Shown: piece after piece, positions 36,290 through 57,372 of the stretch
Numbering within the stretch: position 1 is the first letter of the stretch
Layout of the letters: each line of letters opens with the position of its first letter
IMG/VR virus record: IMGVR_UViG_3300030012_003218
Location: 1-57,571 of that record
DNA: 57,571 bases
Source of the DNA: a virus
Direction: 5' to 3' (one strand)
Position numbers and translations under genes: made by a program
The notes under the pieces: model-generated
The model's input: the letters and a program-made list of their open reading frames with translations, nothing else
What the model was told of the DNA's origin: nothing
The model's database searches: none

Positions 36290-36307
36290 TGTTAAATTTA
36301 TGTTAAA
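36290..36307 (-). repeat. Tandem TTTAACA repeats upstream of a class A promoter
   Basis: Two TTTAACA copies with an 11-bp period (36301-36307 and 36290-36296), the nearer one 7 bases before the -33 box, the same spacing as at five other promoters. Confidence 0.85.
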
Positions 36308-36312
36308 TTTTC

Positions 36313-36516
36313 CTATACCTCTTCCCACTCTACATCCGAAACTTCTTGGAGAAAATAGAAAAAACCGTCATTTCCCTTCAGTACAGTGTCACAATTTAAG
36401 TGTTCTTTCCAAACGTTAACTATTGGTCTTTGGTCAATCGAAATCTTCCGTATGATTAAATATAACTTGTTGTTGTAATTAAGTTTTTGATACCTAAACC
36501 ATGAGTTAGAAAACAT
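36313..36516 (-). CDS. Hypothetical protein
   Basis: 67 residues, aromatic-rich (SWFRYQKLNYNNKLYLIIRK), acidic end (DVEWEEV). No family recognised. Last gene of an operon, followed by the terminator. 6 bases after hsp20. Confidence 0.7.
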   Translation of the reverse strand: MFSNSWFRYQKLNYNNKLYLIIRKISIDQRPIVNVWKEHLNCDTVLKGNDGFFYFLQEVSDVEWEEV

Positions 36517-36522
36517 TTAACT

Positions 36523-36861
36523 TTATTTAACTTTTACTGTAATACTTTTAGCTTTCCTATCCTCGTACTTAGGAATGGAGATTGTTAAGATACCATCTTT
36601 ACAAACAGCAGAAGTTTGATTCAAATCATAAGAATCATGAACCCTGTACTTTCTTTCGAACTTACGATGTTCTTTTTCTGCTTTAATATGTAGATGTCTA
36701 TCTTCTACATTTACTTGAACGTCCTTGTTACCTAATCCAGGCACTTCGAAGTCCATTAACAACACATCGTCTTCAACTCGTGCTGTAGTATCTGAACTGT
36801 AACCATTCATATCCCAATCTAAGTATGAATCGAAAATCTTATCAAAATTTCTTAATGTCAT
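36523..36861 (-). CDS. Small heat-shock protein Hsp20
   Basis: 112 residues from the ATG at 36861, chosen because AAAGGA lies just before it (another in-frame ATG at 36888 adds nine residues). It has the alpha-crystallin domain: VLMDFEVPGLGNKDVQVNV, LHIKAEKEH, then CKDGILTISIPK. A holdase chaperone; Hsp20 genes are common in T4-like marine phages, probably protecting virion proteins during assembly. 110 bases separate it from the upstream gene, with a doubled TTGGTAC but no clear promoter. Confidence 0.9.
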   Translation of the reverse strand: MTLRNFDKIFDSYLDWDMNGYSSDTTARVEDDVLLMDFEVPGLGNKDVQVNVEDRHLHIKAEKEHRKFERKYRVHDSYDLNQTSAVCKDGILTISIPKYEDRKAKSITVKVK

Positions 36862-36971
36862 TTTTTTCCTTTTTAAATAATTAAACATATACTACTATTA
36901 GTACCAAATCTGTACCAATCGGAAATGTATGACATTTTGTTAGTTTTAAATTAGTTCAATGTGACAATGTG

Positions 36972-37322
36972 TCAGTTTACTGACATCGGGTCTCCAACTG
37001 CGATTATATTAAAGACTGACGTATCACCTGATACACTTCGTTTCTCTAAAAGAAATCCATCCATTACAAACAATGAAACTGTTTTGTTAACTAATGTTGG
37101 ATTGTCACAAGAAATTACAAGAGTGTTTGCGTCGATTACAACCTGTATCGGTCTATGTTCGGGAGTTTCTTCAGGAATGTCTACATCTTCAAAGACATCC
37201 TCTTCTAATTCACCATAGAGATAGTCGTGTAGATAATATACTTTAGTCATATCATCTAAACTCATGAAGTAATTATATTCTGCTTCATCCCAATGTTCCA
37301 CGATATCTCCTTTACTATACAT
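36972..37322 (-). CDS. Hypothetical acidic protein
   Basis: 116 residues, very acidic N-terminal half (GELEEDVFEDVDIPEETPE), beta-rich C-terminal half. No family recognised. Its stop codon lies inside the inverted repeat TGTCAG-TAAA-CTGACA; no T-run follows. 3 bases after the upstream gene. Confidence 0.7.
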   Translation of the reverse strand: MYSKGDIVEHWDEAEYNYFMSLDDMTKVYYLHDYLYGELEEDVFEDVDIPEETPEHRPIQVVIDANTLVISCDNPTLVNKTVSLFVMDGFLLEKRSVSGDTSVFNIIAVGDPMSVN

Positions 37323-37325
37323 ATC

Positions 37326-37676
37326 TTAAATCTTATCTTTCCACATCTTGTTCAAGAATAATAAACCTTGTTTGGATATAAACCTTTTATCGTGAAGAAC
37401 AACCTCTGAGAATATCTCAATTAATGTTTTTAAGTACTCAGAACCAAAATTATCCTTGACCATTGTTAGTCTTGGAATCATTTTTTCTTTGTATTCTTTT
37501 GTAACCATTTTATCGGGTTCTGAAATCAACTCCTTGATTTTACTTTTACACAAAGTATAATACGGGTCTTTTTTTTCCACAAGAATATCACGGACACTCT
37601 TTAGATACAACTCTAAGTCCGTATTATTTTCTAATGCGTCTTCATCAAATATGTTGAAAATTCCCTTGGGTGGCAC
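37326..37676 (-). CDS. Hypothetical helical protein
   Basis: 116 residues, Lys/Glu-rich and helical (ELYLKSVRDILVEKKDPYY). No family recognised. Member of the run of small genes from 39621 to 36313. Confidence 0.7.
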   Translation of the reverse strand: MPPKGIFNIFDEDALENNTDLELYLKSVRDILVEKKDPYYTLCKSKIKELISEPDKMVTKEYKEKMIPRLTMVKDNFGSEYLKTLIEIFSEVVLHDKRFISKQGLLFLNKMWKDKI

Positions 37677-37679
37677 TAA

Positions 37680-37970
37680 TTACATATTAAGTTTGTACTT
37701 CTTTTTTGCTAAATCAATCGCCTCTACTAACGTATGTGCTATCCTGTTACATTCTGCCATTGTTAGTTCGATGTCATGATTACCAACCTGTAAGTATCCG
37801 ATTTTAGATGGACCTGTTGGATACTCAGTTTGTTTTTGTTCGTGCATTTGAAAGTCGATAGAAGACCAATAGTTACCCATTCGTTTATCGTTCTTTTTCG
37901 CTACATCGTTTGGAATTCCGAAAGATTGGTTAACGTAACCACCTCTTTGCTTTTTGTTATATTTTTTCAT
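37680..37970 (-). CDS. Hypothetical protein
   Basis: 96 residues, basic N-terminus (KKYNKKQRGGYVNQSFG), helical C-terminus. Preceded by a 58-base gap reading TATTTATG and TATATAAATC, which may hold a weak promoter but has no TTTGG box. Confidence 0.68.
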   Translation of the reverse strand: MKKYNKKQRGGYVNQSFGIPNDVAKKNDKRMGNYWSSIDFQMHEQKQTEYPTGPSKIGYLQVGNHDIELTMAECNRIAHTLVEAIDLAKKKYKLNM

Positions 37971-38028
37971 AAACTGATTTATATAGTTTTGGTTATATTA
38001 CATAAATAGTTTTTTGAAATTAATAAAA

Positions 38029-38331
38029 CTACTTTTTCTTCCTATTTCTTCGAGAAACTCTATCGAACCTTTTCTCATCGATAGCCATTTCATGTTTCAT
38101 TGGATGAGTTCTGTTAAAGTTTTGTTCTATTTGACAAGACCTACTTGCCCAATACCACGCGTCATATACCTTAGTTTGTGGTGGAATGAATAACTCCTCA
38201 CCTACTACTGTACCGATTCCACTTGATATATAAAATAACCCATCTGTGTTTCTTTGAATCTTTGCCTTAGGATATCTTTTCCTAACTTTTCTTTGGAATG
38301 TTTTAAACTTCCTTTTCTGTTTCTCGTCCAT
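38029..38331 (-). CDS. Hypothetical basic protein
   Basis: 100 residues, highly basic at both ends (KQKRKFKTFQRKVRKRYPK; RFDRVSRRNRKKK), compatible with nucleic-acid binding. Overlaps the upstream gene by 29 bp. No family recognised. Confidence 0.72.
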   Translation of the reverse strand: MDEKQKRKFKTFQRKVRKRYPKAKIQRNTDGLFYISSGIGTVVGEELFIPPQTKVYDAWYWASRSCQIEQNFNRTHPMKHEMAIDEKRFDRVSRRNRKKK

Positions 38332-38539
38332 CTTTTTTATTTAGTGATTTCGTCAATCCTCTGTGGATGTGACAACTCGTCAATTCTTTATTTACAGAAC
38401 ACTCGTCAACTGTAGTACCGTTCTCAAGTTTGACTTTATACACAAGTCCTCTTTTTAATCTTGTTCGGTGTAAAACGGAACCCACCCTGTAGGTCCCGTT
38501 TAACTTTACAATTACACTGTCCCCTTTTTGAAAAATCAT
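38303..38539 (-). CDS. Small SH3-like (KOW-type) protein
   Basis: 78 residues. FQKGDSVIVKLNGTYRVGSVLH followed by GLVYKVKLENGTTV (read as separate strands) is the five-stranded SH3-like barrel pattern of nucleic-acid or protein-binding modules. Shares one base with its upstream neighbour (TAATG). Confidence 0.7.
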   Translation of the reverse strand: MIFQKGDSVIVKLNGTYRVGSVLHRTRLKRGLVYKVKLENGTTVDECSVNKELTSCHIHRGLTKSLNKKDGRETEKEV

Positions 38540-38739
38540 TATTTAATTACCTTTATGATTTTGGTCTCTATTACTGACCCTACTTCAAATTCAATTCCTG
38601 AATTCTCAAAGTCTTTTACGACTTTAGTTTCAGCGTCAGTTACAGACACTGCGTTAACTACATATTGTTCAGTTAACTTTTTTACTCTGCCTTTGTCATC
38701 CGTGTGATGTACTTTTACTTTTGCAATGTAATACTTCAT
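38539..38739 (-). CDS. DUF4494-like small protein
   Basis: 66 residues. The layout YYIAKVKV, EQYVVNAVSVTDAE and FEVGSVIET matches DUF4494, small proteins I know mainly from Bacteroidota genomes, where the central EQYLVDA-SFTEAE motif is invariant. Function unknown. Useful as an independent host-lineage hint. Confidence 0.7.
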   Translation of the reverse strand: MKYYIAKVKVHHTDDKGRVKKLTEQYVVNAVSVTDAETKVVKDFENSGIEFEVGSVIETKIIKVIK

Positions 38740-38742
38740 AAT

Positions 38743-39093
38743 TTATTTATTTTGATTTTTATTCTTGTCTCTTTCTTCCATTAAAAGGGTGGACAATTTA
38801 ACCCCTTCTTCGGTTGGACCGTATCCAAGTTTTCCGTTCTCGTCAACGTACATACGAATCAAACCTTTATCAGATAAGTTCATAAGAGCCATATCTGTTT
38901 CAAATCTCGTGTAATCTCTATAAGTTTGAACAACTACTTCTGATAACATATCAAATTCACCTGACTTTTTAAGTTTGTATTTTAAGATATCACCGAATGT
39001 ATTCCAATCGTCAACACCTGAGAATCCAACTTCTTTCAATTCAGATATTATGTCTGTTACTAAGTTATCTAACTCTTCTTGATTCCACTTCAT
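38743..39093 (-). CDS. Hypothetical protein, winged-helix-like
   Basis: 116 residues. LMNLSDKGLIRMYVDENGKLGYGPTEEG (given in parts: a helix then a strand-turn-strand) looks like the wing of a winged-helix domain, but the similarity is only visual. Starts one base after the stop of the next upstream gene. Confidence 0.68.
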   Translation of the reverse strand: MKWNQEELDNLVTDIISELKEVGFSGVDDWNTFGDILKYKLKKSGEFDMLSEVVVQTYRDYTRFETDMALMNLSDKGLIRMYVDENGKLGYGPTEEGVKLSTLLMEERDKNKNQNK

Positions 39094-39094
39094 A

Positions 39095-39268
39095 TTATTT
39101 TTCTTTAGTCTCTACCAAACTGTCTAAGTAATCCATTGCGTCTACGTCCCCAATTAGGACATCCACCTTTGGACCGTTATATCGATTTAACACTGCCTTA
39201 ACTCCCCATTCCTCAACCATCGATTTAAGTTCTTTTATATTTGGTAAATGTATTTTATTAAATCCCAT
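39095..39268 (-). CDS. Small protein (57 residues)
   Basis: ATG at 39268 to TAA at 39095: starts MGFNKIHLPNIKELKSMVEE, contains VDVLIGDVDAMDYLDS. Spacing of 1-2 bases to both neighbours and good codon periodicity support it as a gene. Function unknown. Confidence 0.65.
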   Translation of the reverse strand: MGFNKIHLPNIKELKSMVEEWGVKAVLNRYNGPKVDVLIGDVDAMDYLDSLVETKEK

Positions 39269-39270
39269 AA

Positions 39271-39621
39271 TTAATCAAACCATTGTGACCTGTGGGTCTT
39301 TACGTTTTTAACCATCTTGTCAGGTTCTTCCCAACCTTTTTCATTCATCTTGTCTATGATTCTCTGTTGTACGATATCATCACCAATCTGTCCCATCTTC
39401 TCTGCGTCTTTTATTAACTTCGTAGTAATTTCTTTACCACTCATTTTAGCATCCAACGCTGCGAATCTTTTACAATGATACTTTCCTAATGGTTTACTAT
39501 ATTGTTTTAAGTATGCTGTTTTTGAATCTAAGTATTCTAAAAACATATCAAAGTCATATGCTGCTATTTCGTCAAGTTGTTTATCCGTTAATGGATTCTC
39601 GGGGTCGTACTTTAGATTCAT
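39271..39621 (-). CDS. Hypothetical protein
   Basis: 116 residues, helical, Lys/Asp/Tyr-rich (DKQLDEIAAYDFDMFLEYLD). No family recognised. The class B -7 box ends only 5 bases before the ATG, so the transcript would be nearly leaderless. First gene of the run to 36313. Confidence 0.7.
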   Translation of the reverse strand: MNLKYDPENPLTDKQLDEIAAYDFDMFLEYLDSKTAYLKQYSKPLGKYHCKRFAALDAKMSGKEITTKLIKDAEKMGQIGDDIVQQRIIDKMNEKGWEEPDKMVKNVKTHRSQWFD

Positions 39622-39626
39622 ATCTT

Positions 39627-39658
39627 TAAATATACAAAATTTTTATTTAACATCCAAA
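39627..39658 (-). promoter_or_regulatory. Class B promoter, likely leaderless start
   Basis: TTTGG (39654-39658), 19 bases, TATATTTA (39627-39634). The ATG of the next gene is at 39621, about where transcription should begin. Confidence 0.75.
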
Positions 39659-40080
39659 CCGTTTCTAAACATCTTCTCAATACAGTAGTATTCGTAGACA
39701 TCTTCGGTACTCATAGGTTTCTCATCCATGAGTTTATCCCATAGACAAAAACCAAAATGTTTTTCTAATTCTTTTTTTAAGTTGTTTAATATCTTAATAT
39801 CATCATTGTGTCCTTCTTCAGCCAATTTGTTTGCTCTAACATTCTTTAGGTAGGTCTTTTGTCTTGCCTCATATTCATATCCCCAATAATCACCACCCTC
39901 GGGACACTTACTCATTATCTCATTGTAGAGGTCAGAAGACTGCTTTCTTGCAGCCTTCTCCTCTGTGTAATAATGAGATAATTCAAAGTCACCATTCTGT
40001 ATCCTATCCCAAAGATGAGATTTTACAGAAAGAGTTTTTCTTTTACCATTTGTCCACCACCTATACTTGTTGTATGCCAT
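39643..40080 (-). CDS. Hypothetical protein
   Basis: 145 residues, Trp/Tyr/Lys-rich, start MAYNKYRWWTNGKRKTLSVK, helical afterwards. No family recognised. It follows the AAA+ gene by 27 bases and its end overlaps the next promoter. Confidence 0.7.
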   Translation of the reverse strand: MAYNKYRWWTNGKRKTLSVKSHLWDRIQNGDFELSHYYTEEKAARKQSSDLYNEIMSKCPEGGDYWGYEYEARQKTYLKNVRANKLAEEGHNDDIKILNNLKKELEKHFGFCLWDKLMDEKPMSTEDVYEYYCIEKMFRNGLDVK

Positions 40081-40107
40081 AGTATTAATATTAGAGGTTA
40101 GTAACCC

Positions 40108-41370
40108 TTAGAAAGGATTACTAACGTCTTCTGATTCTACATTAAACAAGTCTTCGTCTTGTGGAGTCTCACCTAAGAACTTCTGAATGTATTGTTTCAT
40201 GAACACTCTCTCAGATTGAGCACCACCACTTTGGTCGAACAATGGATAGATTGTAATCTCAGCGGCTTCACCTAATTCAAAACCATCATAAAGTAGAGAA
40301 CCAATCTCAACTGCGGTTCTTGTTGACAATGAGTTAGTCAACTTAGGAGTCTCTGACATTACGTCATTTCTTGTCATCGAAGTAATTTCAGCAACCGAAG
40401 AAATAACATCCTTATCAACTGAAGGATACATCATCTGAAGTAACTCAGACTCTTCTTCCTTAGTCAAGGTGTCCATTTCAATGACAGTAAATCTGTCAAG
40501 AATAGCTCTATCGAGTGCTCTCGTTGCGGTGTATTCATTACCGATGTTTGCAGATGCGATGAAGGATACTCCGTCTGCAACTTTGATAACAGGAGCGTCA
40601 GCGGCTTCATCCAATCTCAAGTATCTTTGACCTTGGTCAAGAACTGTCATTAGGATGTTGTGAGCCTCAGGGTGTGCTCTCGTCAACTCATCAAGGACCA
40701 CCACCGTGTTTGGAGTTTGGATTGCTTTCACAAATGGTGAAGAGTTGAACACTGTTCCCTTCTTAGTATCGAACTGAGTATTTCCGATAAGGGTTGTTCT
40801 TGGGTCTTGAGTTGCACCCAAGTTAATAATGAAGGTGTTGTAACCTTCAAGGGAATTAGCCGCTGCTTTCGCTGCCATGGTCTTACCACAACCTGCGGGA
40901 CCTGTCATCATAATATTTTTACCTCTAAGGATGTTTCTGATTAGATACTTCCACTTTAGAGACTTCATAAACAACATCTTTGGTTTTAAACCATCGACCT
41001 CATTGTGAATAAAGTTAAGGACATCTGAAGTCATTTCTTTGGACGCGACACCCGTTGGTGTTGGTTCCCATAACATAGACATCAGACCACCGTTAGGTTT
41101 GTTGAAGTTACCAACAGGTTCGGGTTTCTGTTCAACGGTTGAAGCAGGAACTCTGTTGTAAACAATCTCACCATCAGAAAGTCTACCTCTGACTCTGATT
41201 TTGAAACCCCACTTCGCAGGATTGTTACACGCTGACTTTACCCTTTTGTAGAGGTTGGTACCCTCTTCATTGAACTCGGGGATGTTGAACTTAACACCTG
41301 CCGAATCTTCGAACAAATAGAGGTCATCTATCTGAACTACTTTTCCAAAAACTGATTTTTGTGCTTTCAT
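40108..41370 (-). CDS. MoxR/CobS-type AAA+ ATPase
   Basis: 420 residues. Walker A GPAGCGKT (157-164), Walker B VVVLDE (222-227), sensor 1 SFIASAN, and the arginine stretch RALDRAILDRF mark a MoxR-branch AAA+ protein of the CobS/CbbQ kind. Residues 1-~110 are a separate beta-rich domain. Such ATPases work with VWA-domain partners as chaperones that insert metals or remodel complexes; the partner is encoded directly upstream. CobS-like proteins are known from T4-like marine phages. Own class A promoter. Confidence 0.9.
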   Translation of the reverse strand: MKAQKSVFGKVVQIDDLYLFEDSAGVKFNIPEFNEEGTNLYKRVKSACNNPAKWGFKIRVRGRLSDGEIVYNRVPASTVEQKPEPVGNFNKPNGGLMSMLWEPTPTGVASKEMTSDVLNFIHNEVDGLKPKMLFMKSLKWKYLIRNILRGKNIMMTGPAGCGKTMAAKAAANSLEGYNTFIINLGATQDPRTTLIGNTQFDTKKGTVFNSSPFVKAIQTPNTVVVLDELTRAHPEAHNILMTVLDQGQRYLRLDEAADAPVIKVADGVSFIASANIGNEYTATRALDRAILDRFTVIEMDTLTKEEESELLQMMYPSVDKDVISSVAEITSMTRNDVMSETPKLTNSLSTRTAVEIGSLLYDGFELGEAAEITIYPLFDQSGGAQSERVFMKQYIQKFLGETPQDEDLFNVESEDVSNPF

Positions 41371-41415
41371 AGACTTTGTTTTAAATTATTATTTCTCATT
41401 ATTATTATTACTCTC

Positions 41416-41447
41416 TAAAGATAGTGAATTAGGTTCACAATTCCAAA
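41416..41447 (-). promoter_or_regulatory. Class A promoter for the AAA+ gene
   Basis: TTTGG (41443-41447), 19 bases, TATCTTTA (41416-41423), about 45 bases before the ATG. Confidence 0.82.
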
Positions 41448-41454
41448 TTTCTAA

Positions 41455-41472
41455 TGTTAAATTATTGTTAAA
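41455..41472 (-). repeat. Tandem TTTAACA repeats upstream of AAA+ promoter
   Basis: TTTAACA at 41466-41472 and 41455-41461, period 11, 7 bases from the -33 box. The first copy contains the stop codon of the VWA gene. Confidence 0.85.
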
Positions 41473-43588
41473 TTTTAACTTCAAACTTTTTATTTAATGT
41501 CTTAGCTAACTGAGTCACATTGTTTACATCAATGAACTCTGAATCCTTTCCGTACATTTTCTCAAACTGACTCTTACTATTTCCGTAGTATCCATCAGAG
41601 ATAAAGTAAGAAAGAACTGATACACCTGACTGTCTGATTTTCTTGACTTGTTCTGCTGTATGGTCTACTGCGTATTGACCGTTGTAACTAATTTCTCTGT
41701 TATCAAAACCAGGCCACCCATCTGAGAAGTTGATTAGATAACTCTCTTCACCGTTCTTGGTCTTAGTTAACTCTTTTAGTACTGCTTCAAAACAAAGACC
41801 CTCGGGTGTTGTACCACTTGGTGATATGTGTTTGAATAAGTTCTGTATCTTTGAGAACTTATCTTTTCTCGAATCATATGCAACCAACATCAAAGGTTGA
41901 CAGTGTCTACTTTCTCTATTGTAGTAAATACCTCTGTAAGATATAACAACATTCATATTCTCTGTCATTGATGCTGCTTTAGCGATTGCTACTGCGGCGG
42001 TCTGAGTGTTGTACCACTTGTCACCATTCATTGAAGAACTTGCGTCAATCGAGATATGTAGTAGAGAAGGAGTCGCGGTATTGATATTGATTTGGTCAAA
42101 GATATCAAAGTTACCGAAACCAATCTCGTGTAACATTCTACCATTCAACTTACCACTCTTCATTCTTGGAGTCTGAAGAACTCTCTCCTCGTTTCTTGTT
42201 TTAAGTTTCTTACCTAACTGAGTACCTAACATAATACCCTTGTCAACTGCGACCTTGTTTGAATCAGTTCTCCAATAACCTAAGTGGTCAATCAGACCCG
42301 ACTCAATTAACTGTTGAGTCATGTTGTTGATAACATAAGTTTGAACACCTTGTGATTGGTTTCTCCAATAACCTTGTTCAAGACCTTTACCTGTAACCTC
42401 TGTCTTGATATCTGCAGTATCAAGAGTATCAATCTTCTTTTTATCTGCTTTAGATATTTTCTTTTTAGTGATATCACCATTCTGAAACTTCTTTTGTTTT
42501 TCAATGGCGTTCTCTAACATCTTTTTTTGTCTGTCATTCAGTGGTTGGTGTTGACCACCTGCACCATTCTTGTTTGATTGACCACTTGACATAGAACCTT
42601 TCTTATCAGTAGAACCATCGTCCTTACCATCACCATCAGAGTCGGTACCTTTACCTTTACCCTTACCTGTCATTGGTTTACCATCACCCGTTGGTTTAGA
42701 TTGTGAATCAGATACTTCAGACTTACCATCAGTATCACCATCTTCACCACCATTACTTTTTTGTGATTCTGGCATTTGGTCCATATAATCATCAACATTC
42801 TTTTGGATGACTTTGTATATCTTACCTGCTAACTCAAGAGACTCATCTGTATTTTTTAGTCTTGAAATATTTCTAAGGTCAAGAAGACTCCAAATCTCTT
42901 TCAATCCTTTTAGAGCACTGAGGTCTCTGTTCTTGTTAGTGATGTTAATCAATCTAAACATATAAGACTCCCAAGTCTCATCTCTATGTTCTGAAGACTT
43001 AAGACCCTTGTCTACTACATTAGAGTGGAAATACTTTTTGTACATTGACTCGTAGTAACCTCTGTAACCAGGCGCCGATGAATAAACAAAGTTATCAATT
43101 CTCCTGTCTTCTACATAGTTAAGAAGGTCTTTTAGTTTACTTTTTATATCATTACCCACTGACCACCAATCGTCACCAAACACTCCCGACTTGTCTTGAT
43201 AAGGTTTAACGATTTCTTGCATAGACACAGGAAATATGTTGTGGTCCATAAGATTTCTAAGGGAATCGAAATCTGTAAGTTTAATGTGAGAACCCTCATG
43301 TAGTGCGAGACCAACCACGGGGTCAAATTCTTTATCGTCTAATTTTGCAGAGATAACAACCTCTTGACCATCCGTGTAAGAGTCACTACCCCTACCATCG
43401 AATGTCACAGGAATAGACTCACCTGTTACAATACTTACGAAGTTACCGATACTCCTCTTGTAGGACATCAGTTTCATTAAGTCATTTGATTTCTTTTCTA
43501 CTTTTGATACATCATCATCCTCGTCCCAAATAGACTTGTCGAGCCAGAAGGATGAATAGTTTAGATTTGATTTATACATATTTCCCAT
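41468..43588 (-). CDS. VWA protein with N-terminal zincin-like (HExxH) domain, CobT-like
   Basis: 706 residues. An HEGSH motif at 97-101 within ALHEGSHIKLTDF suggests a zinc metallopeptidase fold, as in DUF2201/CobT-like proteins. Residues ~280-360 are a Gly/Lys/Asp/Ser-rich linker. The C-terminal VWA domain has the full MIDAS: DASSS (515-519), a Thr in SGTTPEG (~587-593) and Asp in NFSDGWPG. Pairs with the MoxR-type ATPase downstream, each with its own class A promoter. Whether the HExxH is catalytic or only structural is unknown. Cobalt-chelatase (cobalamin) activity is unlikely without other pathway genes. Confidence 0.88.
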   Translation of the reverse strand: MGNMYKSNLNYSSFWLDKSIWDEDDDVSKVEKKSNDLMKLMSYKRSIGNFVSIVTGESIPVTFDGRGSDSYTDGQEVVISAKLDDKEFDPVVGLALHEGSHIKLTDFDSLRNLMDHNIFPVSMQEIVKPYQDKSGVFGDDWWSVGNDIKSKLKDLLNYVEDRRIDNFVYSSAPGYRGYYESMYKKYFHSNVVDKGLKSSEHRDETWESYMFRLINITNKNRDLSALKGLKEIWSLLDLRNISRLKNTDESLELAGKIYKVIQKNVDDYMDQMPESQKSNGGEDGDTDGKSEVSDSQSKPTGDGKPMTGKGKGKGTDSDGDGKDDGSTDKKGSMSSGQSNKNGAGGQHQPLNDRQKKMLENAIEKQKKFQNGDITKKKISKADKKKIDTLDTADIKTEVTGKGLEQGYWRNQSQGVQTYVINNMTQQLIESGLIDHLGYWRTDSNKVAVDKGIMLGTQLGKKLKTRNEERVLQTPRMKSGKLNGRMLHEIGFGNFDIFDQININTATPSLLHISIDASSSMNGDKWYNTQTAAVAIAKAASMTENMNVVISYRGIYYNRESRHCQPLMLVAYDSRKDKFSKIQNLFKHISPSGTTPEGLCFEAVLKELTKTKNGEESYLINFSDGWPGFDNREISYNGQYAVDHTAEQVKKIRQSGVSVLSYFISDGYYGNSKSQFEKMYGKDSEFIDVNNVTQLAKTLNKKFEVKI

Positions 43589-43605
43589 TTTTTAATCTTA
43601 CGATA

Positions 43606-43637
43606 TAAAGATAATACAATTTTTACTTATTTCCAAA
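43606..43637 (-). promoter_or_regulatory. Class A promoter for the VWA gene
   Basis: TTTGG (43633-43637), 19 bases, TATCTTTA (43606-43613), 17 bases before the ATG at 43588. Confidence 0.82.
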
Positions 43638-43644
43638 TTTCTAA

Positions 43645-43662
43645 TGTTAAGAAATTGTTAAA
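43645..43662 (-). repeat. Tandem TTTAACA repeats upstream of VWA promoter
   Basis: TTTAACA (43656-43662) and CTTAACA (43645-43651), period 11, 7 bases from the -33 box; they overlap the last codons of the 55-residue gene. Confidence 0.82.
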
Positions 43663-44040: not shown

Positions 44041-44058
44041 ATCTTTTTCTTTACATAG

Positions 44059-44090
44059 TAAAGATAAGCATAAAAACGTTAATATCCAAA
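44059..44090 (-). promoter_or_regulatory. Class A promoter with four-repeat upstream array
   Basis: TTTGG (44086-44090), 19 bases, TATCTTTA (44059-44066), 18 bases before the ATG at 44040. Confidence 0.82.
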
Positions 44091-44097: not shown

Positions 44098-44137
44098 TGT
44101 TAAATTTTTGTTAAAGTTATTAACAAGTTATTAACAA
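44098..44137 (-). repeat. Four 11-bp phased repeats upstream of a class A promoter
   Basis: From far to near on the minus strand: TTGTTAATAAC twice (44127-44137, 44116-44126), then TTTAACA twice (44109-44115, 44098-44104), all in 11-bp register, the last 7 bases from the -33 box. The whole gap between 44040 and 44143 is taken up by this regulatory region. Confidence 0.85.
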
Positions 44138-49087: not shown

Positions 49088-49119
49088 CTAATATACGATG
49101 GGATTTTTTTAAATCCAAA
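49088..49119 (-). promoter_or_regulatory. Promoter of the tRNA cluster
   Basis: TTTGG (49115-49119), 19 bases, TATATTAG (49088-49095), 14 bases before tRNA-Leu. It has a class B -7 box but a class A upstream repeat. GGATTT and AAATCC in the spacer form a short inverted repeat. Confidence 0.82.
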
Positions 49120-49126: not shown

Positions 49127-49144
49127 TGTTAAATAATCGTTAAT
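49127..49144 (-). repeat. Tandem TTTAACA-type repeats at tRNA promoter
   Basis: TTTAACA (49127-49133) and the weaker ATTAACG (49138-49144), period 11, 7 bases from the -33 box. Confidence 0.75.
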
Positions 49145-51103: not shown

Positions 51104-51135
51104 ATGTGTAATTTAAAAAAATTTCGTGTGTGTTT

Positions 51136-51151: not shown

Positions 51152-51175
51152 TACTGCTTATTTGCTTACTGCTCG

Positions 51176-51394
51176 TCATCGGTCATTCTTCCACCATGTC
51201 TTGAAAAACTCGGACCAAAACACATAACCCGTTACGGGCCAGAGAATCAATCCAATTATTACTTGTTCGGTTGTGGGGTGAAACCTTTCCGTCAACCCAC
51301 CCTTCCTATCTACATAGTCAAGGAGTAACATAATGATTAGATTGTTTATACAACCTAACATAATGTATAATGATATATATTGAAATATTGTCAT
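51176..51394 (-). CDS. Small two-TM membrane protein
   Basis: 72 residues. Hydrophobic segments ~4-26 and ~45-61 (IIGLILWPVTGYVFW), C-terminus KTWWKNDR. ATGA overlap with the upstream gene. Function unknown. Confidence 0.7.
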   Translation of the reverse strand: MTIFQYISLYIMLGCINNLIIMLLLDYVDRKGGLTERFHPTTEQVIIGLILWPVTGYVFWSEFFKTWWKNDR

Positions 51395-51690
51395 AGTTTG
51401 TTCTTATACTCTGAGTGTGTCATGAACTCTACTCTTTCTTTGTCCCACATATCGGGTGGACAATCCTGAGAGTTAACGAACCACTCTTTAATTATTTCAC
51501 TTAATTCTTTTTCTTCTAACCTATGGAACTTAGTCTCATTACTGTATACCTTAGGATAGTCTAAGTAATATGACCGTAGATTATCGTCTGATACTTTGAA
51601 GGGTCGTTCTTCTACTTGTTCCCCCCTGATGAATTGGATGACTCCGTAGAAATAATTCATGTCCGCAAAATTCGTGTCCGTTATTTCCAT
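51391..51690 (-). CDS. Hypothetical protein
   Basis: 99 residues from ATG at 51690 (MEITDTNFADMNYFYGV). The frame is open further up to a GTG at 51804, but that part is overlapped by a credible membrane protein in another frame, so I chose the ATG that overlaps its end by 10 bp. Acidic, Tyr/Phe-rich; no family recognised. Confidence 0.65.
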   Translation of the reverse strand: MEITDTNFADMNYFYGVIQFIRGEQVEERPFKVSDDNLRSYYLDYPKVYSNETKFHRLEEKELSEIIKEWFVNSQDCPPDMWDKERVEFMTHSEYKNKL

Positions 51691-51860
51691 GGTACGATTG
51701 TCATTCCGATTTGATTCAATAAGTTCTCTACTATACAAAAGACTAACATCCCTACCGCGATTTGCCACATCCACCATCTCCATCCCGTTAATGATAGTGA
51801 CCACTTACGAAGTGGTGATTCCATTGCCCATGTATATAATTTTTCTTTTATCTTTTTCAT
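51681..51860 (-). CDS. Small membrane protein (59 residues)
   Basis: ATG at 51860 in ATGA overlap with the FkbM gene, stop at 51681. Reads MKKIKEKLYTWAMESPLRKW, then an aromatic/hydrophobic segment (WRWWMWQIAVGMLVFCIVE) likely to span the membrane. Preferred over the competing frame because of the overlap and composition. Confidence 0.65.
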   Translation of the reverse strand: MKKIKEKLYTWAMESPLRKWSLSLTGWRWWMWQIAVGMLVFCIVENLLNQIGMTIVPWK

Positions 51861-52429
51861 TTTAAAAATCCCATTACATCATAGTAGAACTCTTCAACAT
51901 GATATCCGTGTGAATGTAAGTAGTTAACTATTTCTCTTAACTTACCACTATGTTTATGTTCTACCTTAATTATTTTTGGTTTAATCTTATTCATGTCGAT
52001 ACTTTGTAGTATCTCCCAATCGTGTCCTTCCGTATCTATCTTTAAATAGTCTACCCATTGGATATTATATTTTTCTACTAACGTATCCCACGTTACCGTT
52101 TCAACTTTTATCTTTTCAGTATGAACAGGTACACCTCTATCATTTAACATCTCTTCCCCTGCCATACTACCATGATGAATGTCTCTATGAAACGAAGACA
52201 TCCCTTTGAAGTCTCTACTCTTTTCATGATACTTTTCGGGACACAACCACAAATCACGTTCACCATTCTTTGTGTCCAACGCAGAGTTTACATATACGAT
52301 AGTCGGATGTTTCTCTAAGTTGTCTAAGTATTTCTTAACAGGTTCTACAATGATTCCTTGCCAACCATCGTAGTATAAGTGATTCAATGTATTGAAATCA
52401 CACGAACCTATTTCAATAAACGTTTTCAT
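51857..52429 (-). CDS. FkbM-family methyltransferase
   Basis: 190 residues. FIEIGSCDFN (motif I), VYVNSALD and the family signature DYLKIDTEGHDWEIL followed by IIKVEHKH. FkbM enzymes O-methylate sugars or polyketides. With the GT25 and nucleotidyltransferase genes nearby, a role in glycan decoration is plausible. Confidence 0.87.
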   Translation of the reverse strand: MKTFIEIGSCDFNTLNHLYYDGWQGIIVEPVKKYLDNLEKHPTIVYVNSALDTKNGERDLWLCPEKYHEKSRDFKGMSSFHRDIHHGSMAGEEMLNDRGVPVHTEKIKVETVTWDTLVEKYNIQWVDYLKIDTEGHDWEILQSIDMNKIKPKIIKVEHKHSGKLREIVNYLHSHGYHVEEFYYDVMGFLK

Positions 52430-52430
52430 A

Positions 52431-52589
52431 TTACCAAAATTTCCACCAAGGTTTTCTAAACGGTTTTAGTTCTATCTCATCGATTAACCATTTCAATCTC
52501 TCTGCTGCCATCAAGGGACAATCTGATTCACATAACTCTGCAATCTGTTTGAGATTCTTTACTATGTACTCTTGTTCCTTATACTGCAC
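52431..52589 (-). CDS. Small protein (52 residues, GTG start)
   Basis: GTG at 52589 to TAA at 52431, overlapping the upstream gene by 11 bp and ending one base before the FkbM ATG. Helical, with CESDC in the middle and an aromatic end KPWWKFW. Start codon uncertain. Confidence 0.55.
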   Translation of the reverse strand: MQYKEQEYIVKNLKQIAELCESDCPLMAAERLKWLIDEIELKPFRKPWWKFW

Positions 52590-53049
52590 TATTTAACGCT
52601 TTTTCGATTAACCAACTTGAGGATTGTACTTTGTCACCTAATCCCCATACCATATCTACTCCCATAGAATTACAATAGTCTTCCTCGGGAATATTTCCTT
52701 TACCTCTATCACCACCGTTACCAAACGCCATAGATAGTGGTTCATCATACTCTCTACGGAATGTGTTAACCGCAGAATAGATTCCATCACAAACTGTTTT
52801 ATCAGTTGCACTTCTTGGGTTACATACAAATGTTTTTGTTACACCCTTGACACGGGACATGATATATTCCCTTTCTCTTTCTTTCATAAAGGGTTTACCT
52901 TTCTTTTGTTTTAACCAAAAATCATTATTAAGGATTACCCAAACTTCTTCTGCCATCTCTTCTGCTTTTTCAATCATTTGAAGATGACCTTTGTGGACAG
53001 GGTCGAACCCACCACTGACTAACATAACTTTATACTTTTTGTCTTTCAT
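52579..53049 (-). CDS. Cytidylyltransferase-like nucleotidyltransferase
   Basis: 156 residues. GGFDPVHKGH (13-22) is the HxGH motif; SSSWLIEKAL near the end is the second motif. Similar to glycerol-3-phosphate cytidylyltransferase or the RfaE/HldE adenylyltransferase domain, which activate sugar or alcohol phosphates for glycan synthesis. Overlaps the upstream gene by 20 bp. Confidence 0.87.
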   Translation of the reverse strand: MKDKKYKVMLVSGGFDPVHKGHLQMIEKAEEMAEEVWVILNNDFWLKQKKGKPFMKEREREYIMSRVKGVTKTFVCNPRSATDKTVCDGIYSAVNTFRREYDEPLSMAFGNGGDRGKGNIPEEDYCNSMGVDMVWGLGDKVQSSSWLIEKALNSAV

Positions 53050-53242
53050 TTTTTTTAACTCTTTTCTTTCTTCGGTCTTTGACTTCTAACTTTCTATAAT
53101 ACTCTTGTATCTCAGGGTCTCTCTTAAACTCTTCTCTTTGTTGTTTATGTCCCCTGTATATCATAGTCAATAATCCCCACATATAAAGTGAGAAGATTAT
53201 GAATCCTATGATGAACATTCCTAATGGTGCTGGTGAACTCAT
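53030..53242 (-). CDS. Small single-TM protein
   Basis: 70 residues. Membrane segment ~8-30 (GMFIIGFIIFSLYMWGLL), then a basic cytoplasmic helix (KDRRKKRVKKNERQKV). Overlaps both neighbours. Confidence 0.7.
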   Translation of the reverse strand: MSSPAPLGMFIIGFIIFSLYMWGLLTMIYRGHKQQREEFKRDPEIQEYYRKLEVKDRRKKRVKKNERQKV

Positions 53243-53436
53243 TTCTTATTTTTAAATAAATCGTTTCTCCTTTGTCTTATAGCGATTGAGAACGCTAAGA
53301 TAGATGGTACCCATATACCAACAAAAATTCCTTCTAACTTCTGACCACTAAACCATAGTGATACTGAATAAAGGAATGATATAAATGCTAAAATGATTGG
53401 GTAATATGTGTCCCAAAATAATTTAATTGTTTTCAT
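53239..53436 (-). CDS. Small two-TM protein
   Basis: 65 residues, hydrophobic segments ~10-30 and ~33-50 (IFVGIWVPSILAFSIAI), end RRNDLFKNKK. ATGA overlaps on both sides. Confidence 0.7.
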   Translation of the reverse strand: MKTIKLFWDTYYPIILAFISFLYSVSLWFSGQKLEGIFVGIWVPSILAFSIAIRQRRNDLFKNKK

Positions 53437-53612
53437 AGTTCATTATATTTTGTAATTAATACTTCATAACTTTTTTGATATCTATCCAACTGACTCATCT
53501 TTGGATAGTCTATCTCATACTGTTTTACTAACTTAAACATCTCGTCTCTAAATCCATACGCATGTGCTTCGTATAAGATTTCTTCAATATGTTCTTCATT
53601 CGATATACTCAT
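53433..53612 (-). CDS. Small protein (59 residues)
   Basis: ATG at 53612 to TGA at 53433: starts MSISNEEHIEEILYEAHAYG; acidic, helical, Tyr-rich. ATGA overlap with the genes on both sides. No family recognised. Confidence 0.65.
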   Translation of the reverse strand: MSISNEEHIEEILYEAHAYGFRDEMFKLVKQYEIDYPKMSQLDRYQKSYEVLITKYNEL

Positions 53613-53767
53613 ACTTCAAAGTATTTAAAAATTAAATAACCTAACAGGGTGATTCCAAGTAGTACTACAGATGCTTTTATTCCGAAGTAACTATTGTTGT
53701 ATTGTTGTTTACTACGACCCTGTCTATATTTCATATCTTCTTCTGTCATTGGTGCTCTATGTATCAT
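53609..53767 (-). CDS. Small single-TM protein (52 residues)
   Basis: ATG at 53767 to TGA at 53609. Polar start MIHRAPMTEEDMKYRQGRSK, then a membrane segment (ASVVLLGITLLGYLIFKYF). ATGA overlap with the next gene. Confidence 0.65.
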   Translation of the reverse strand: MIHRAPMTEEDMKYRQGRSKQQYNNSYFGIKASVVLLGITLLGYLIFKYFEV

Positions 53768-53769
53768 GA

Positions 53770-53988
53770 TTAATAATCGTAATTAGGTTCTTCTTGTACA
53801 GGTCTTCCCTTTAAGTACAACTTTAAAATTTTATTCTCGTTCTTTCTTCTAATCTTATAGTCACTATAAGATTCACCTTCTAATCTTTTGTTTCCCTTTA
53901 GGTATTGAGAAACACCATCTGTAAAATCAAGAGTATAGTTTACATCCATCTCTTTATTTTCTTGTGGTAACATTTTATCTAAATCCAT
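53770..53988 (-). CDS. Hypothetical protein
   Basis: 72 residues, charged, Tyr-rich end (EEPNYDY). No family recognised. Begins one base after the thymidylate synthase stop. Confidence 0.68.
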   Translation of the reverse strand: MDLDKMLPQENKEMDVNYTLDFTDGVSQYLKGNKRLEGESYSDYKIRRKNENKILKLYLKGRPVQEEPNYDY

Positions 53989-53989
53989 A

Positions 53990-54787
53990 TTAGTTACTTA
54001 ATTTTGCTTTTAGTGTTTTGTGTGATTGATAATTATTTAGTTTGAATTCAAACTCACCGTTGAGGATATCTGAACTTGTGATATCCATAGTAGGTAATTC
54101 ATATCCAACTCGTTTTACTATTTCTTTTGCTTGTGGTAAGTGGTTCTTGTATAGATGTACATCACCGAAGTTTCCAATCAGATTACCAGGCTCATATCCT
54201 GTTTCTTTACATAGTACCATCAATAACATACCATAAGAAGAAATGTTAAAAGGTAACCCAAGGAAGGCATCAACACTTCTTTGGTTCCATAAGAGAGATA
54301 ACTTGTTGTCGTTACTAACGTAACATTGGAATCCATAATGACAAGGTGGTAGTGTCATAAGATGTAGGTCCTCTACATTCCAAGCATTGACAAGATGTCG
54401 CCTTCCGTGTGGGTTTTCTTTTAACGTATATAATAACTCTGTCAGTTGGTCTATACCGTTCCAATCTCTCCATTGTTTTCCATAGATTGGTCCAAGTTCT
54501 CCATCGGTCCTTCCACTCTTCTTGTAGTCACCATCCCATATATGACAGTTGTTATCCCACAAGTATTGGATATCGGTACGACCTTTCAGAAACCATTTGA
54601 GTTCTGTAGCAACAGTTTTCAAAGGCATCTTCTTAGTGGTAAGTACAGGGAACCCATCACACATACAATGTCTGAAGGAACCACCAAAAAACGATAACGT
54701 TCCTGTACCTGTTCGGTCCTGACGTTCTTCACCGAACTCTAAAATGTTGTGAATGATATCTTGGTATTGACTATCTACTCTATTCAT
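53990..54787 (-). CDS. thyA: Thymidylate synthase ThyA
   Basis: 265 residues, full length. DRTGTGTLSFFG (24-35), catalytic Cys149 in LPPCHYGFQCYV, and the dUMP-binding block RSVDAFLGLPFNI plus GDVHLYKNH. It makes dTMP from dUMP with methylene-THF for phage DNA synthesis. No intron. ATGA overlap with the small gene upstream. Confidence 0.97.
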   Translation of the reverse strand: MNRVDSQYQDIIHNILEFGEERQDRTGTGTLSFFGGSFRHCMCDGFPVLTTKKMPLKTVATELKWFLKGRTDIQYLWDNNCHIWDGDYKKSGRTDGELGPIYGKQWRDWNGIDQLTELLYTLKENPHGRRHLVNAWNVEDLHLMTLPPCHYGFQCYVSNDNKLSLLWNQRSVDAFLGLPFNISSYGMLLMVLCKETGYEPGNLIGNFGDVHLYKNHLPQAKEIVKRVGYELPTMDITSSDILNGEFEFKLNNYQSHKTLKAKLSN

Positions 54788-54942
54788 TTTACTCCACCTG
54801 ATTCTATTGTGTTAATCATATCTTCAATCATTCCGTGCCATTTACCGTATGTATCTCGTGATTCTTCATCGGTGTTTTGTTCACACCTACGTTTAAAATC
54901 AAGTTTAACAGCAGTCAATAAATGTATTAGCACGTCTTTCAT
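54784..54942 (-). CDS. Small protein upstream of thyA (52 residues)
   Basis: I start it at ATG 54942 (MKDVLIHLLTAVKLDFKRRC). An in-frame ATG at 54960 would add six residues, but its first two bases are the end of a promoter -7 box, so transcripts from that promoter would not contain it. Helical, ends in ATGA overlap with thyA. No family recognised. Confidence 0.6.
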   Translation of the reverse strand: MKDVLIHLLTAVKLDFKRRCEQNTDEESRDTYGKWHGMIEDMINTIESGGVK

Positions 54943-54958
54943 ATTTAATTGTTTAGAC

Positions 54959-54990
54959 ATAATATACGAAATTTTTAGATTAAATCCAAA
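54959..54990 (-). promoter_or_regulatory. Class B promoter for the thyA operon
   Basis: TTTGG (54986-54990), 19 bases, TATATTAT (54959-54966). The expected start of transcription is only a few bases before the ATG at 54942. The -33 box ends beside the stop codon of the 54991 gene. Confidence 0.75.
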
Positions 54991-55122
54991 TTATTTCTTA
55001 TCTTTTTTTGATTTCTTTTTAGGGATAACATTACCATGTTGGTCTACTTCAGGTGCGATATGCATTTCATATACAATCCATAACCAAATAACTGCTAATG
55101 TTCCTATAACTACTTTTACCAT
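54991..55122 (-). CDS. Small single-TM protein (43 residues)
   Basis: ATG at 55122 to TAA at 54991. N-terminal hydrophobic segment MVKVVIGTLAVIWLWIVYEM, then a basic tail (KKKSKKDKK). Begins 6 bases after the ParB-like gene. Could be a small inner-membrane peptide. Confidence 0.6.
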   Translation of the reverse strand: MVKVVIGTLAVIWLWIVYEMHIAPEVDQHGNVIPKKKSKKDKK

Positions 55123-55128
55123 AATCTA

Positions 55129-55995
55129 TTATTTCATAAAATCAGGACAGAACGTTGTCGCAACATCTGTACATTTCTCACTTACAATGGTATCACCTGC
55201 TTCAAGTTGAGAATGATTCTCAGTTTCGTTCTTAATAAACTGAACCATTCCTGGCGTCAAGTCATATAAGAACTTAGTAAACTTACCGTTGTCACTTCCC
55301 ATCTTCTTAGCGGTACCACCTAACTGTATTGTGTACGCTCTTAACCAATTGTTATTAGTATTAAGTCTGTCACCTGTCAAACCCTTCAAGGTGTTTAGGT
55401 GTCCCAAGATTGTATTGGCGATTAATAACTCTGAATGATTAAACTTCATAGTACCTTGTTTCAAGGGATGGTCTAAAGTTATACTTCGTGAGTTAAGATA
55501 TGCTGCTACTACAACTCCTGATGTGAAACCTAATACCTTGTACTCTTTAAACGCATTAAGTAGTGTGGTGTATGCTCCACCGATTGTTTTAGCGAAACTT
55601 TCAACGAAGTCTTCTGTATGCCACTTCTTCTGCCACTGATTAAGTAAGATGATATAGAACTGAGTTTCTGATACTGATTCGGGGTTTACCCAATCAAGTA
55701 TGTATACAGGAACTTCTTGGTCAGAACTCATCAGAGGGTCACACCCTTTCCATAGGTGATGTGCGTCTGCTAACTTGTATTTACCATCTTTGTTTTTTGG
55801 AAATACAATGAATGGTCTAATCAAACCACTCCTTCCTACTGACGTACCTAAGTTGTCTGCGTGGTCTTGTACTAATTCTCGGTTGGGGTCAGACCAATCC
55901 ATGTCCCCATACTTAATGGTATCTACTGTACCAATCAGTATACCTTTTTTCATTCTACGTTTTATAGTCCGTATCAGACTTTTTGGTTGTTTCAT
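55129..55995 (-). CDS. ParB-like (ParB/sulfiredoxin fold) protein
   Basis: 288 residues. NLGTSVGRSGLIRPFIVFP (48-66) followed by YKLADAHHLWKG (73-84) is the ParB N-terminal box (GL..P..V, then ADGHH). No helix-turn-helix of classical ParB is obvious; residues ~120-288 are unassigned. ParB-fold domains in phages can be nucleases, CTPases or modification enzymes. 10 bases after the nuclease-like gene. Confidence 0.68.
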   Translation of the reverse strand: MKQPKSLIRTIKRRMKKGILIGTVDTIKYGDMDWSDPNRELVQDHADNLGTSVGRSGLIRPFIVFPKNKDGKYKLADAHHLWKGCDPLMSSDQEVPVYILDWVNPESVSETQFYIILLNQWQKKWHTEDFVESFAKTIGGAYTTLLNAFKEYKVLGFTSGVVVAAYLNSRSITLDHPLKQGTMKFNHSELLIANTILGHLNTLKGLTGDRLNTNNNWLRAYTIQLGGTAKKMGSDNGKFTKFLYDLTPGMVQFIKNETENHSQLEAGDTIVSEKCTDVATTFCPDFMK

Positions 55996-56005
55996 AATTT
56001 TTAAT

Positions 56006-56473
56006 TTAGATTACTTTTTCTGCTTTTAATTCATTTATTAATTTATCTTTGTTAGTACCCCAATGTCCGTGGATACTCTTACCACCTGTTGACTTTTCTT
56101 TTAGGTAAGGTATAACTGTTTTAGTAGGTACTCTGTAAATCTCTTTGATTTGAACACCATCCCTAATACAAAAGTACATATCTTCAGTTTGACTATATTG
56201 GTTAATCTTGTTCTCTGATAACCAATGAAACTGAAATGTACCTTTACCTTTACTCCTCAAGTTTATTGCTTTATACTCGACAGGTTTCTTTTTGACAGGG
56301 TCGTATGCGTCACCACCCTGTGTGTTGTTACCGTACTCATGACCCAATTCATTTGCAATCATAAGTTCGACAAATCGTTCATTGTAGAAAATGTTTTCAA
56401 GTCCCAACTCATCTTGTGCGAGGTCTTGAGCCTGTTTCAACAGACTTTTAATCTTTGTAACTGTTTTATTCAT
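56006..56473 (-). CDS. PD-(D/E)xK nuclease-like protein
   Basis: 155 residues. Glu36 in ERFVELMIAN, Asp55/Asp58 in QGGDAYDP and Glu66-x-Lys68 in PVEYKAINL form the spaced E...D...ExK arrangement of restriction-type PD-(D/E)xK folds. Later WLSENKINQYSQTEDMYF resembles restriction endonuclease cores. No DNA methylase is adjacent. DNA cleavage is inferred, not shown. Confidence 0.62.
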   Translation of the reverse strand: MNKTVTKIKSLLKQAQDLAQDELGLENIFYNERFVELMIANELGHEYGNNTQGGDAYDPVKKKPVEYKAINLRSKGKGTFQFHWLSENKINQYSQTEDMYFCIRDGVQIKEIYRVPTKTVIPYLKEKSTGGKSIHGHWGTNKDKLINELKAEKVI

Positions 56474-56485
56474 ATCGTTTATCTG

Positions 56486-56659
56486 TTACCCGTCAATCCT
56501 ATGTTGTTTGAAACCGATAACAGGTTTGTATCCCGTTAACTCATCTTGATGTTTTTGAATCAGTTGTTTCACCATTACGAGTTTCGAAACATCTTGTTCC
56601 TCTTTTACCCATTCGGCAAAGAGTTTGGTCAATACATAATTTTTAATTGTCTTAATCAT
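56486..56659 (-). CDS. Small helical protein (57 residues)
   Basis: Start at ATG 56659 (MIKTIKNYVLTKLFAEWVKE), because an earlier in-frame ATG at 56701 would lie inside the upstream gene. Helical and basic. No family recognised. Confidence 0.62.
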   Translation of the reverse strand: MIKTIKNYVLTKLFAEWVKEEQDVSKLVMVKQLIQKHQDELTGYKPVIGFKQHRIDG

Positions 56660-56670
56660 AATTTTTAATT

Positions 56671-56868
56671 TTAATAAAAGAATCGATTCCAAGTTATCCA
56701 ACTTGGTTCACTAACTTTCTTACCATCACGAACAACGATACATTTGTTGCCGTCTTTACTTACCCATAGGAGTTTGTTGTTCCCATAATAGTCTTTACCT
56801 ATATGGTTACGAAGTTCACCTATCTTATTGGTCCCATCTATTGGGTCACTAATACTTAAGTTTATCAT
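56671..56868 (-). CDS. Hypothetical protein
   Basis: 65 residues with strand-rich layout (KLLWVSKDGNKCIVVRDGKK). ATGA overlap with the upstream gene. No family recognised. Confidence 0.68.
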   Translation of the reverse strand: MINLSISDPIDGTNKIGELRNHIGKDYYGNNKLLWVSKDGNKCIVVRDGKKVSEPSWITWNRFFY

Positions 56869-57083
56869 ACTACTGTTAATATTTGTTCATTACTAATTGC
56901 TACATTTGATGGTTCACCACCAAGTCCCATATCCGATTGTACTATTGTCAGATACATATCATATATGTTACCATCGTCATCTACAGATGGGAATGGTTTG
57001 TTTAACTGTGAGATAACACCATCATTGATTCTACCCCACTTATCTTCGAACATTACTTTTTGTCCTATACTAAATTGTCTCAT
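56865..57083 (-). CDS. Small SH3-like protein
   Basis: 72 residues. FSIGQKVMFEDKWGRINDGVI and later YLTIVQ, VAISNEQILTVV give an SH3-like barrel pattern similar to the gene at 38303. Begins one base after the upstream stop. Confidence 0.65.
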   Translation of the reverse strand: MRQFSIGQKVMFEDKWGRINDGVISQLNKPFPSVDDDGNIYDMYLTIVQSDMGLGGEPSNVAISNEQILTVV

Positions 57084-57084
57084 A

Positions 57085-57270
57085 TTAAAACTGAATTAAA
57101 TCGATTACCATTTCACCTGTAGGATTACCGTTAGCAGTAATCTCATAGTTTGGGTCCATCCCGTTGTCAACTACATAGTCAACTAATTCGTTTATTGATT
57201 TGAACTCATTTACGAAATAAGAACAATCGAGGGAGTACTTTGTATACATCATATAATTTTTATTTATCAT
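57085..57270 (-). CDS. Hypothetical protein
   Basis: 61 residues (starts MINKNYMMYTKYSLDCSYFV); other ATGs at 57252 and 57249 are possible. Acidic, no family recognised. First gene after the class A promoter at 57294. Confidence 0.66.
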   Translation of the reverse strand: MINKNYMMYTKYSLDCSYFVNEFKSINELVDYVVDNGMDPNYEITANGNPTGEMVIDLIQF

Positions 57271-57293
57271 TACTATTAATCATTATTACATAG

Positions 57294-57325
57294 TAAAGAT
57301 AGTGAAAGTAAATGACTTTTCCAAA
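57294..57325 (-). promoter_or_regulatory. Class A promoter for the 57270-54991 operon
   Basis: TTTGG (57321-57325), 19 bases, TATCTTTA (57294-57301), 23 bases before the ATG. Confidence 0.83.
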
Positions 57326-57332
57326 TGTTTAA

Positions 57333-57372
57333 TGTTAAATTTATGTTAAATTTATCAACAAGTTATTAACAA
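57333..57372 (-). repeat. Four 11-bp phased repeats upstream of a class A promoter
   Basis: TTGTTAATAAC (57362-57372), TTGTTGATAAA (57351-57361), TTTAACA (57344-57350) and TTTAACA (57333-57339), all in 11-bp register, the last 7 bases from the -33 box. Nearly the same array as at 44098-44137. Confidence 0.85.

Follow-up and report, generated by a model that had tools for sequence, protein, structure and literature searches.

What reads the tandem TTTAACA repeats that stand at a fixed distance upstream of one class of phage promoters? We address this question in a window of 57,571 nucleotides, bases 1-57,571 of the 76,075-bp viral record IMGVR_UViG_3300030012_003218. The original prediction, made from the letters of this window, described arrays of the form TTTAACA-N4-TTTAACA upstream of "class A" promoters and absent from "class B" promoters, and left open which site they represent. 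The evidence that we have collected points to a host Pho box, predicted to be read by the host regulator PhoB. We consider it probable that the arrays are Pho boxes of a Flavobacteriales host, and that host PhoB helps to activate the class A promoters.

Arrays and promoters in the viral record

The arrays are present at 6/6 of the places named for them, all on the minus strand, with 0-2 mismatches and with exactly 7 bases between the array and the TTTGG of the promoter (CTTGG at 36282). The features of the window are as follows.

36290..36307, minus strand: Pho-box-like array TTTAACATAAATTTAACA, with -33 CTTGG at 36278-36282 and -7 TATCTTTA at 36251-36258; downstream are a 40-amino-acid (aa) open reading frame (ORF), a PNKP-type phosphatase and UvdE.
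41455..41472, minus strand: array TTTAACAATAATTTAACA, with -33 at 41443-41447 and -7 at 41416-41423; the gene behind it encodes a MoxR-like AAA ATPase (40108-41370).
43645..43662, minus strand: array TTTAACAATTTCTTAACA, with -33 at 43633-43637 and -7 at 43606-43613; the gene behind it encodes a vWA-domain protein (41468-43588).
44098..44115, minus strand: array TTTAACAAAAATTTAACA, with -33 at 44086-44090 and -7 at 44059-44066, before a 77-aa ORF.
44116..44137, minus strand: two inverted in-register units TTGTTAATAAC, forming a plus-strand box at 44119-44136, ATTAACAAGTTATTAACA.
49127..49144, minus strand: array ATTAACGATTATTTAACA with 2 mismatches, -33 at 49115-49119 and -7 TATATTAG at 49088-49095; behind it are tRNA-Leu and tRNA-Arg.
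57333..57350, minus strand: array TTTAACATAAATTTAACA, with -33 at 57321-57325 and -7 at 57294-57301, before a 61-aa ORF.
57351..57372, minus strand: two inverted in-register units, forming a plus-strand box at 57354-57371, ATCAACAAGTTATTAACA.
39627..39658, minus strand: class B promoter TTTGG...TATATTTA, which lacks the array (10 mismatches where it would stand).
1458..1489, minus strand: class B promoter TTTGG...TATATTTA, which lacks the array (10 mismatches where it would stand).

The array alone, at up to 3 mismatches, is no commoner than chance in the window (36 matches, 33 expected). The composite of array and promoter, TTTAACA-N4-TTTAACA-N7-TTTGG at up to 2 mismatches, is found at 10 places in the 76-kb record, 6 of which are inside the window; in 200 first-order shuffles of the record it averages 0.005 and never exceeds 1, and the reversed-pattern control gives 0 matches. 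The four copies outside the window (58959, 68077, 71016 and 72041), which come from the search of the rest of the record that the original prediction had proposed, are an out-of-sample confirmation. Shuffles, reversed controls and out-of-sample copies together rule out that the composite is a product of chance.

Promoter-like sites on the coding strand form two classes, with either 0-2 or at least 8 mismatches at the array position, and class B promoters do lack the array, as had been claimed. The proposal that class A is defined by its -7 sequence does not survive: TATCTTTA is ruled out as the class marker by three arrayed promoters in the record with a different -7 element, which is TATATTTA at 68077 and TATATTAG at 49119 and 71016. 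The further units at 44098 and 57333 had been taken as extensions of the array. These TTGTTAATAAC units (44116-44137 and 57351-57372) keep the 11-bp register, but they do not extend the array in the same direction; their orientation is inverted, and on the opposite strand they form another TTAACA-N5-TTAACA-type box pointing the other way. Both inverted units are present at up to 2 mismatches in 4/87 promoters of the phages that carry the composite (hereafter carriers).

The same motif at host phosphate genes

A direct repeat of TTAACA at 11 bp has the form of a Pho box, and we examined host phosphate genes for that reason. Upstream of pstS in 19 Flavobacteriales regions, a de novo hexamer search made without the phage motif returns TTAACA at 11 bp as the top repeated hexamer of constant spacing; it is found in 8 genomes, and the runner-up hexamer in 4. 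The best array match in the pstS upstream regions has on average 2.37 mismatches, against 3.90 in shuffles, and the opposite strand matches more weakly. In 13 pst-bearing genomes there are 17 exact occurrences of YTTAACA-N4-YTTAACA (1 in the control), of which 10 are at the pst cluster. The boxes in the pst cluster stand before pstS, a Na+/Pi cotransporter, a porin and a transporter-like protein that has no Pfam hit and by eye is like phosphate permeases. As is expected of a Pho box, the same motif stands upstream of phosphate-uptake genes of the host group.

Host boxes also keep a regular distance from the promoter. In a set of 396 genomes, the box is followed by TAnnTTTG at 45 places, against 4 in the control. 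The commonest gaps between host box and -7 are 20, 31 and 42 bp, which form a ladder with 11-bp steps; in the phages the gap is 31 bp. The distance between box and promoter in the phages is compatible with that in the host regulon, another property expected of a Pho box. Often the host box is 11 bp closer (gap 20) and occupies the place of the -33. Behind box and -7 in this set we find genes for the Na/Pi cotransporter, the transporter-like protein, the porin, a membrane protein family and DUF1573. We propose as a candidate Flavobacteriales Pho box YTTAACA-N4-YTTAACA, mostly located 20, 31 or 42 bp before the -7. The phage array matches this putative Pho box of its likely hosts in half-site, 11-bp period, orientation and 31-bp gap. 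A search of the available papers did not find a description of TTAACA phage promoters or of a Bacteroidetes Pho box, and the paper on the Flavobacterium johnsoniae PHO regulon does not give a motif (PMC8115612). Ahead of genes for host DUF1573 proteins (L359-L363), at least four Flavobacteriales genomes have the box at 41-42 bp from the -7, which makes DUF1573 a possible new member of the Pho regulon.

Conservation among carrier phages

The search of related phages, also suggested by the original prediction, finds the full composite (array, TTTGG and TATNTTTA) in 66 stretches on 53 IMG/VR contigs. All 41/41 carrier records have between 1 and 26 composite copies, with 0 in the reversed control. 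For comparison we use eleven carrier records (some in part only) together with two array-free relatives. The carriers are T4-like, with baseplate, sheath, capsid and terminase families in common with Flavobacterium phage immuto and phage Mel-JY01; by gene content, those examined are classed as T4-like Bacteroidetes phages, large viruses of aquatic hosts. There are no arrays in immuto and Mel-JY01, and no array-like elements were seen at their orthologous genes. A search for cultured carriers (tblastn with two carrier proteins) returned only distant relatives among named phages.

Exact TTTAACA pairs in the carriers number 58 at 11 bp and at most 6 at any other spacing; the two array-free relatives have none at 11 bp. 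The array is a head-to-tail direct repeat with an 11-bp period, as a Pho box is. Over 87 distinct promoters, the distance from box to TTTGG is 7, or in a few cases 6 or 8, and the C of the half-site is invariant in both units (87/87). In most carriers, class A promoters often have a TGTAA close to the start site; this element is missing in carrier G012 and in class B. Because TGTAA is missing in G012, a 266-kb carrier, the array is the more conserved part.

The invariant C bears on another suggestion of the original prediction, an UP-element-like contact. In that case the array would be an UP-type element that needs no dedicated regulator and offers Bacteroidetes RNA polymerase an optimal contact for its alpha C-terminal domain. 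The position of the array at about -46 and -57, its A/T richness and its promoter-proximal phase would all agree with that. An UP element is recognised by its A-tracts and has no fixed G or C, whereas here the C of TTAACA is fixed in both half-sites of all 87 promoters, unlike in A-tract contacts; the site is moreover rare at host promoters generally and enriched before host phosphate genes. We regard an UP-type element as very improbable.

The number of sites, 10-26 in some records, would agree with boxes that act mainly as a sink titrating host PhoB, so that the host phosphate response is weakened. So would a run in carrier G007 (35249-35332, minus strand; locus L217) of about nine TTTAACA-type units at 11- and 14-bp steps, which has no obvious promoter beside it and is near a cluster of arrayed promoters on both strands. 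Nearly all boxes are phase-fixed to a promoter, for which a sink has no need, and of all explanations this is the one to which we give the least credence.

Genes behind the arrays

The array-preceded families common to different carriers are the MoxR-like AAA ATPase (also in G005, G009, G012, G022 and G030), the vWA-domain protein (also in G005, G009, G012 and G022), the LPD29-like protein, the SprT-like protein and a HAD-type phosphatase. In this window, tRNAs are also behind an array. In G009, G005 and this record, there is no array among the terminase, capsid, sheath and tube genes or in the baseplate block. The original prediction of a phased site for a cooperative regulator, marking one class of phage genes, gains support from the fixed phase, the conservation and the orthologous genes, and the marking of a single class from the absence of the array from both class B promoters and the structural block. 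This placement before non-structural genes would fit an early or middle class.

Two of these families deserve a separate description. The MoxR-like AAA ATPase and the vWA protein (40108-43588 in the window) are adjacent, each with an array of its own, and are kept in T4-like Bacteroidetes carriers. The LPD29-like protein (L009 12864-13475; record 70363-70974), whose Pfam match is slightly under the cut-off, occurs in neither of the two array-free relatives but in 8 carriers, most of which have an array directly upstream of it.

The candidate reader

The OmpR/PhoB-type DNA-binding domain (PF00486) is found in 0/16 carrier records, which may be incomplete. We also considered a carrier-only phage DNA-binding protein as the reader, and rejected it: the proteins present in carriers and absent from the two array-free relatives include none recognisable as a classical DNA-binding regulator. 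These results bear on the proposal that a phage-encoded regulator, not of OmpR type and with the same half-site preference, activates a middle class in the manner of T4 MotA, the similarity to a Pho box being convergence or mimicry. The near confinement of the full composite to phages speaks for such a regulator, as does the fact that the carriers belong to a single phage lineage with genes of its own, for many of which no function is known. Against it stand the missing regulator and the missing PF00486 just described, and the agreement of half-site, 11-bp period, orientation and 31-bp gap with host phosphate promoters, which convergence does not predict. We judge a phage regulator unlikely. 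A phage factor had first been suggested by host genomes essentially free of the composite, a suggestion that was reversed once the pstS promoters were examined without requiring TTTGG.

A candidate reader is found in a Schleiferiaceae metagenome-assembled genome (MAG), G042, which includes a 76-kb contig with class A promoters (G042:C47; L100, L364). All composite matches of the bin are on this phage contig. The rest of the bin has a single PF00486 protein, which is PhoB-like and shares 56% identity with the regulator encoded next to pstS of G057; a PhoR-like kinase gene follows its gene. The only box of G042 outside the phage contig in a search at up to 1 mismatch has 1 mismatch and is located between this regulator gene and a divergent lipoprotein-like gene. 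The regulator gene adjoins pstS in both G057 and G099. In F. johnsoniae, the phoBR locus includes a lipoprotein from the pectin-lyase superfamily that is under strong phosphate regulation (PMC8115612), and to which the lipoprotein-like protein of G042 is similar by eye. The phage contig in this MAG is either contamination or a hint of the host. Phage array, regulator and host box are tied together in one bin, binning being no proof of host. The carriers appear to be without a PhoB of their own and, by this one bin, their putative host to have one, as for the cyanophages described below.

A host regulator of OmpR type need not respond to phosphate. It could follow another signal, such as envelope or general stress, and be exploited by the phages as a general host activator. 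The G042 MAG keeps the regulator though it has no pstS or pstB hits, some host boxes are before DUF1573 and membrane proteins of unknown role, and in Riemerella a related regulator pair affects one third of the genes (PMC5399024). On the other side, the box is concentrated at pst genes wherever pst is present, and the regulator gene is beside pstS in G057 and G099. A non-phosphate signal seems to us even less likely than a phage regulator.

For the reading that we prefer, Pho boxes read by host PhoB, the following points count as evidence against. The full composite is found once at up to 1 mismatch in 147 Flavobacteriales genomes (the MAG at the centre of the search set apart), with 6 in the control. 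PhoB-like regulators also act on genes unrelated to phosphate. The host assignment is the one bin G042, where pstS and pstB gave no hit. In Riemerella, deletion of the related regulator pair raised pstS (PMC5399024), so that in some Flavobacteriales the regulator may be something other than a simple phosphate activator. Pho boxes predicted in phages frequently prove non-functional, and those of cyanophage S-PM2d are functional only in part (PMC10976474).

Predicted mechanism

Each array would be the site of one head-to-tail PhoB dimer, with two 11-bp units and TTAACA half-sites, upstream of what looks like a complete housekeeping-type promoter, TTTGG-N19-TAnnTTTA. When phosphate is short, the kinase PhoR would activate host PhoB, which would sit beside sigma at about -46 and -57 (estimated from the position of the -7 element) and contact RNA polymerase through sigma region 4 or the alpha C-terminal domain. 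The outcome would be more transcription of the phage non-structural operons (MoxR-like AAA, vWA, LPD29-like, SprT-like, HAD, tRNAs). Because the -33 box is intact, we expect basal activity that PhoB would boost. Binding by host PhoB, activation and not repression, the need for phosphorylation, dependence on phosphate and timing are what we infer from sequence comparison. A bolder extension is that a whole expression class of a T4-like phage lineage, with many non-structural operons, is gated by the phosphate-starvation regulator of the host, the phage sensing phosphate via PhoBR and adjusting the speed or outcome of infection; this we put forward tentatively, as a possibility that we doubt.

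If the Pho-box reading is true, class A genes should be both PhoB-dependent and phosphate-dependent. The phosphate alarm of the host would then govern phage genes beyond the few known from cyanophages, through a regular promoter type of Flavobacteriales phages. The Flavobacteriales are among the main consumers of algal matter, in waters that are often poor in phosphate.

Relation to known systems

The PhoP box of Bacillus subtilis consists of TTAACA direct repeats at 11 bp, and is like the phage array in half-site and in head-to-tail repeat, in another phylum and with another polymerase. The pho box of Escherichia coli has two 11-bp units (7+4) that bind a head-to-tail PhoB dimer; this tandem architecture is alike, whereas the half-site sequence differs, and the E. 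coli box replaces the -35 while the phage box leaves the -33 intact. Middle promoters of T4 have a single MotA box near -30 that replaces the -35 and is read by a phage protein. There too a dedicated upstream box marks one non-structural promoter class in a T4-like phage, but here the array is upstream of an intact TTTGG.

The nearest precedent is that of cyanophage genes under host PhoBR control (P-SSM2 pstS and S-PM2d genes), which include non-phosphate genes (PMC10976474). In both cases T4-like phages have genes of their own behind Pho boxes, with host PhoB as the reader (as predicted here). In the cyanophages the genes are few and the boxes variable and weakly matching; in the Bacteroidetes carriers the composite is uniform, reaches 26 copies, keeps its box at a fixed 7 bases from an intact -33, and recurs at the same genes throughout a phage lineage. 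The novelty lies in the phylum, in a promoter of standard composite form, in its copy number, in its conservation at the same genes over a phage lineage, and in the proposed Flavobacteriales Pho box.

Other observations

In class A promoters (44052-44066, 57287-57301 and others), the -7 element and the start region form a near-palindrome, CTTTAC-TAT-GTAAAG. Just past window position 57571, a short translated stretch of the record consists of unknown residues, which indicates a run of undetermined bases. On Bacteroidales contigs L093 (G044:C109), L082 and L126, TTTAACA-N4-TTTAACA stands before TTTGGTGG and a -7 element; G044 has two such arrays on a single contig of 6 kb, which may be a related use in gut elements.

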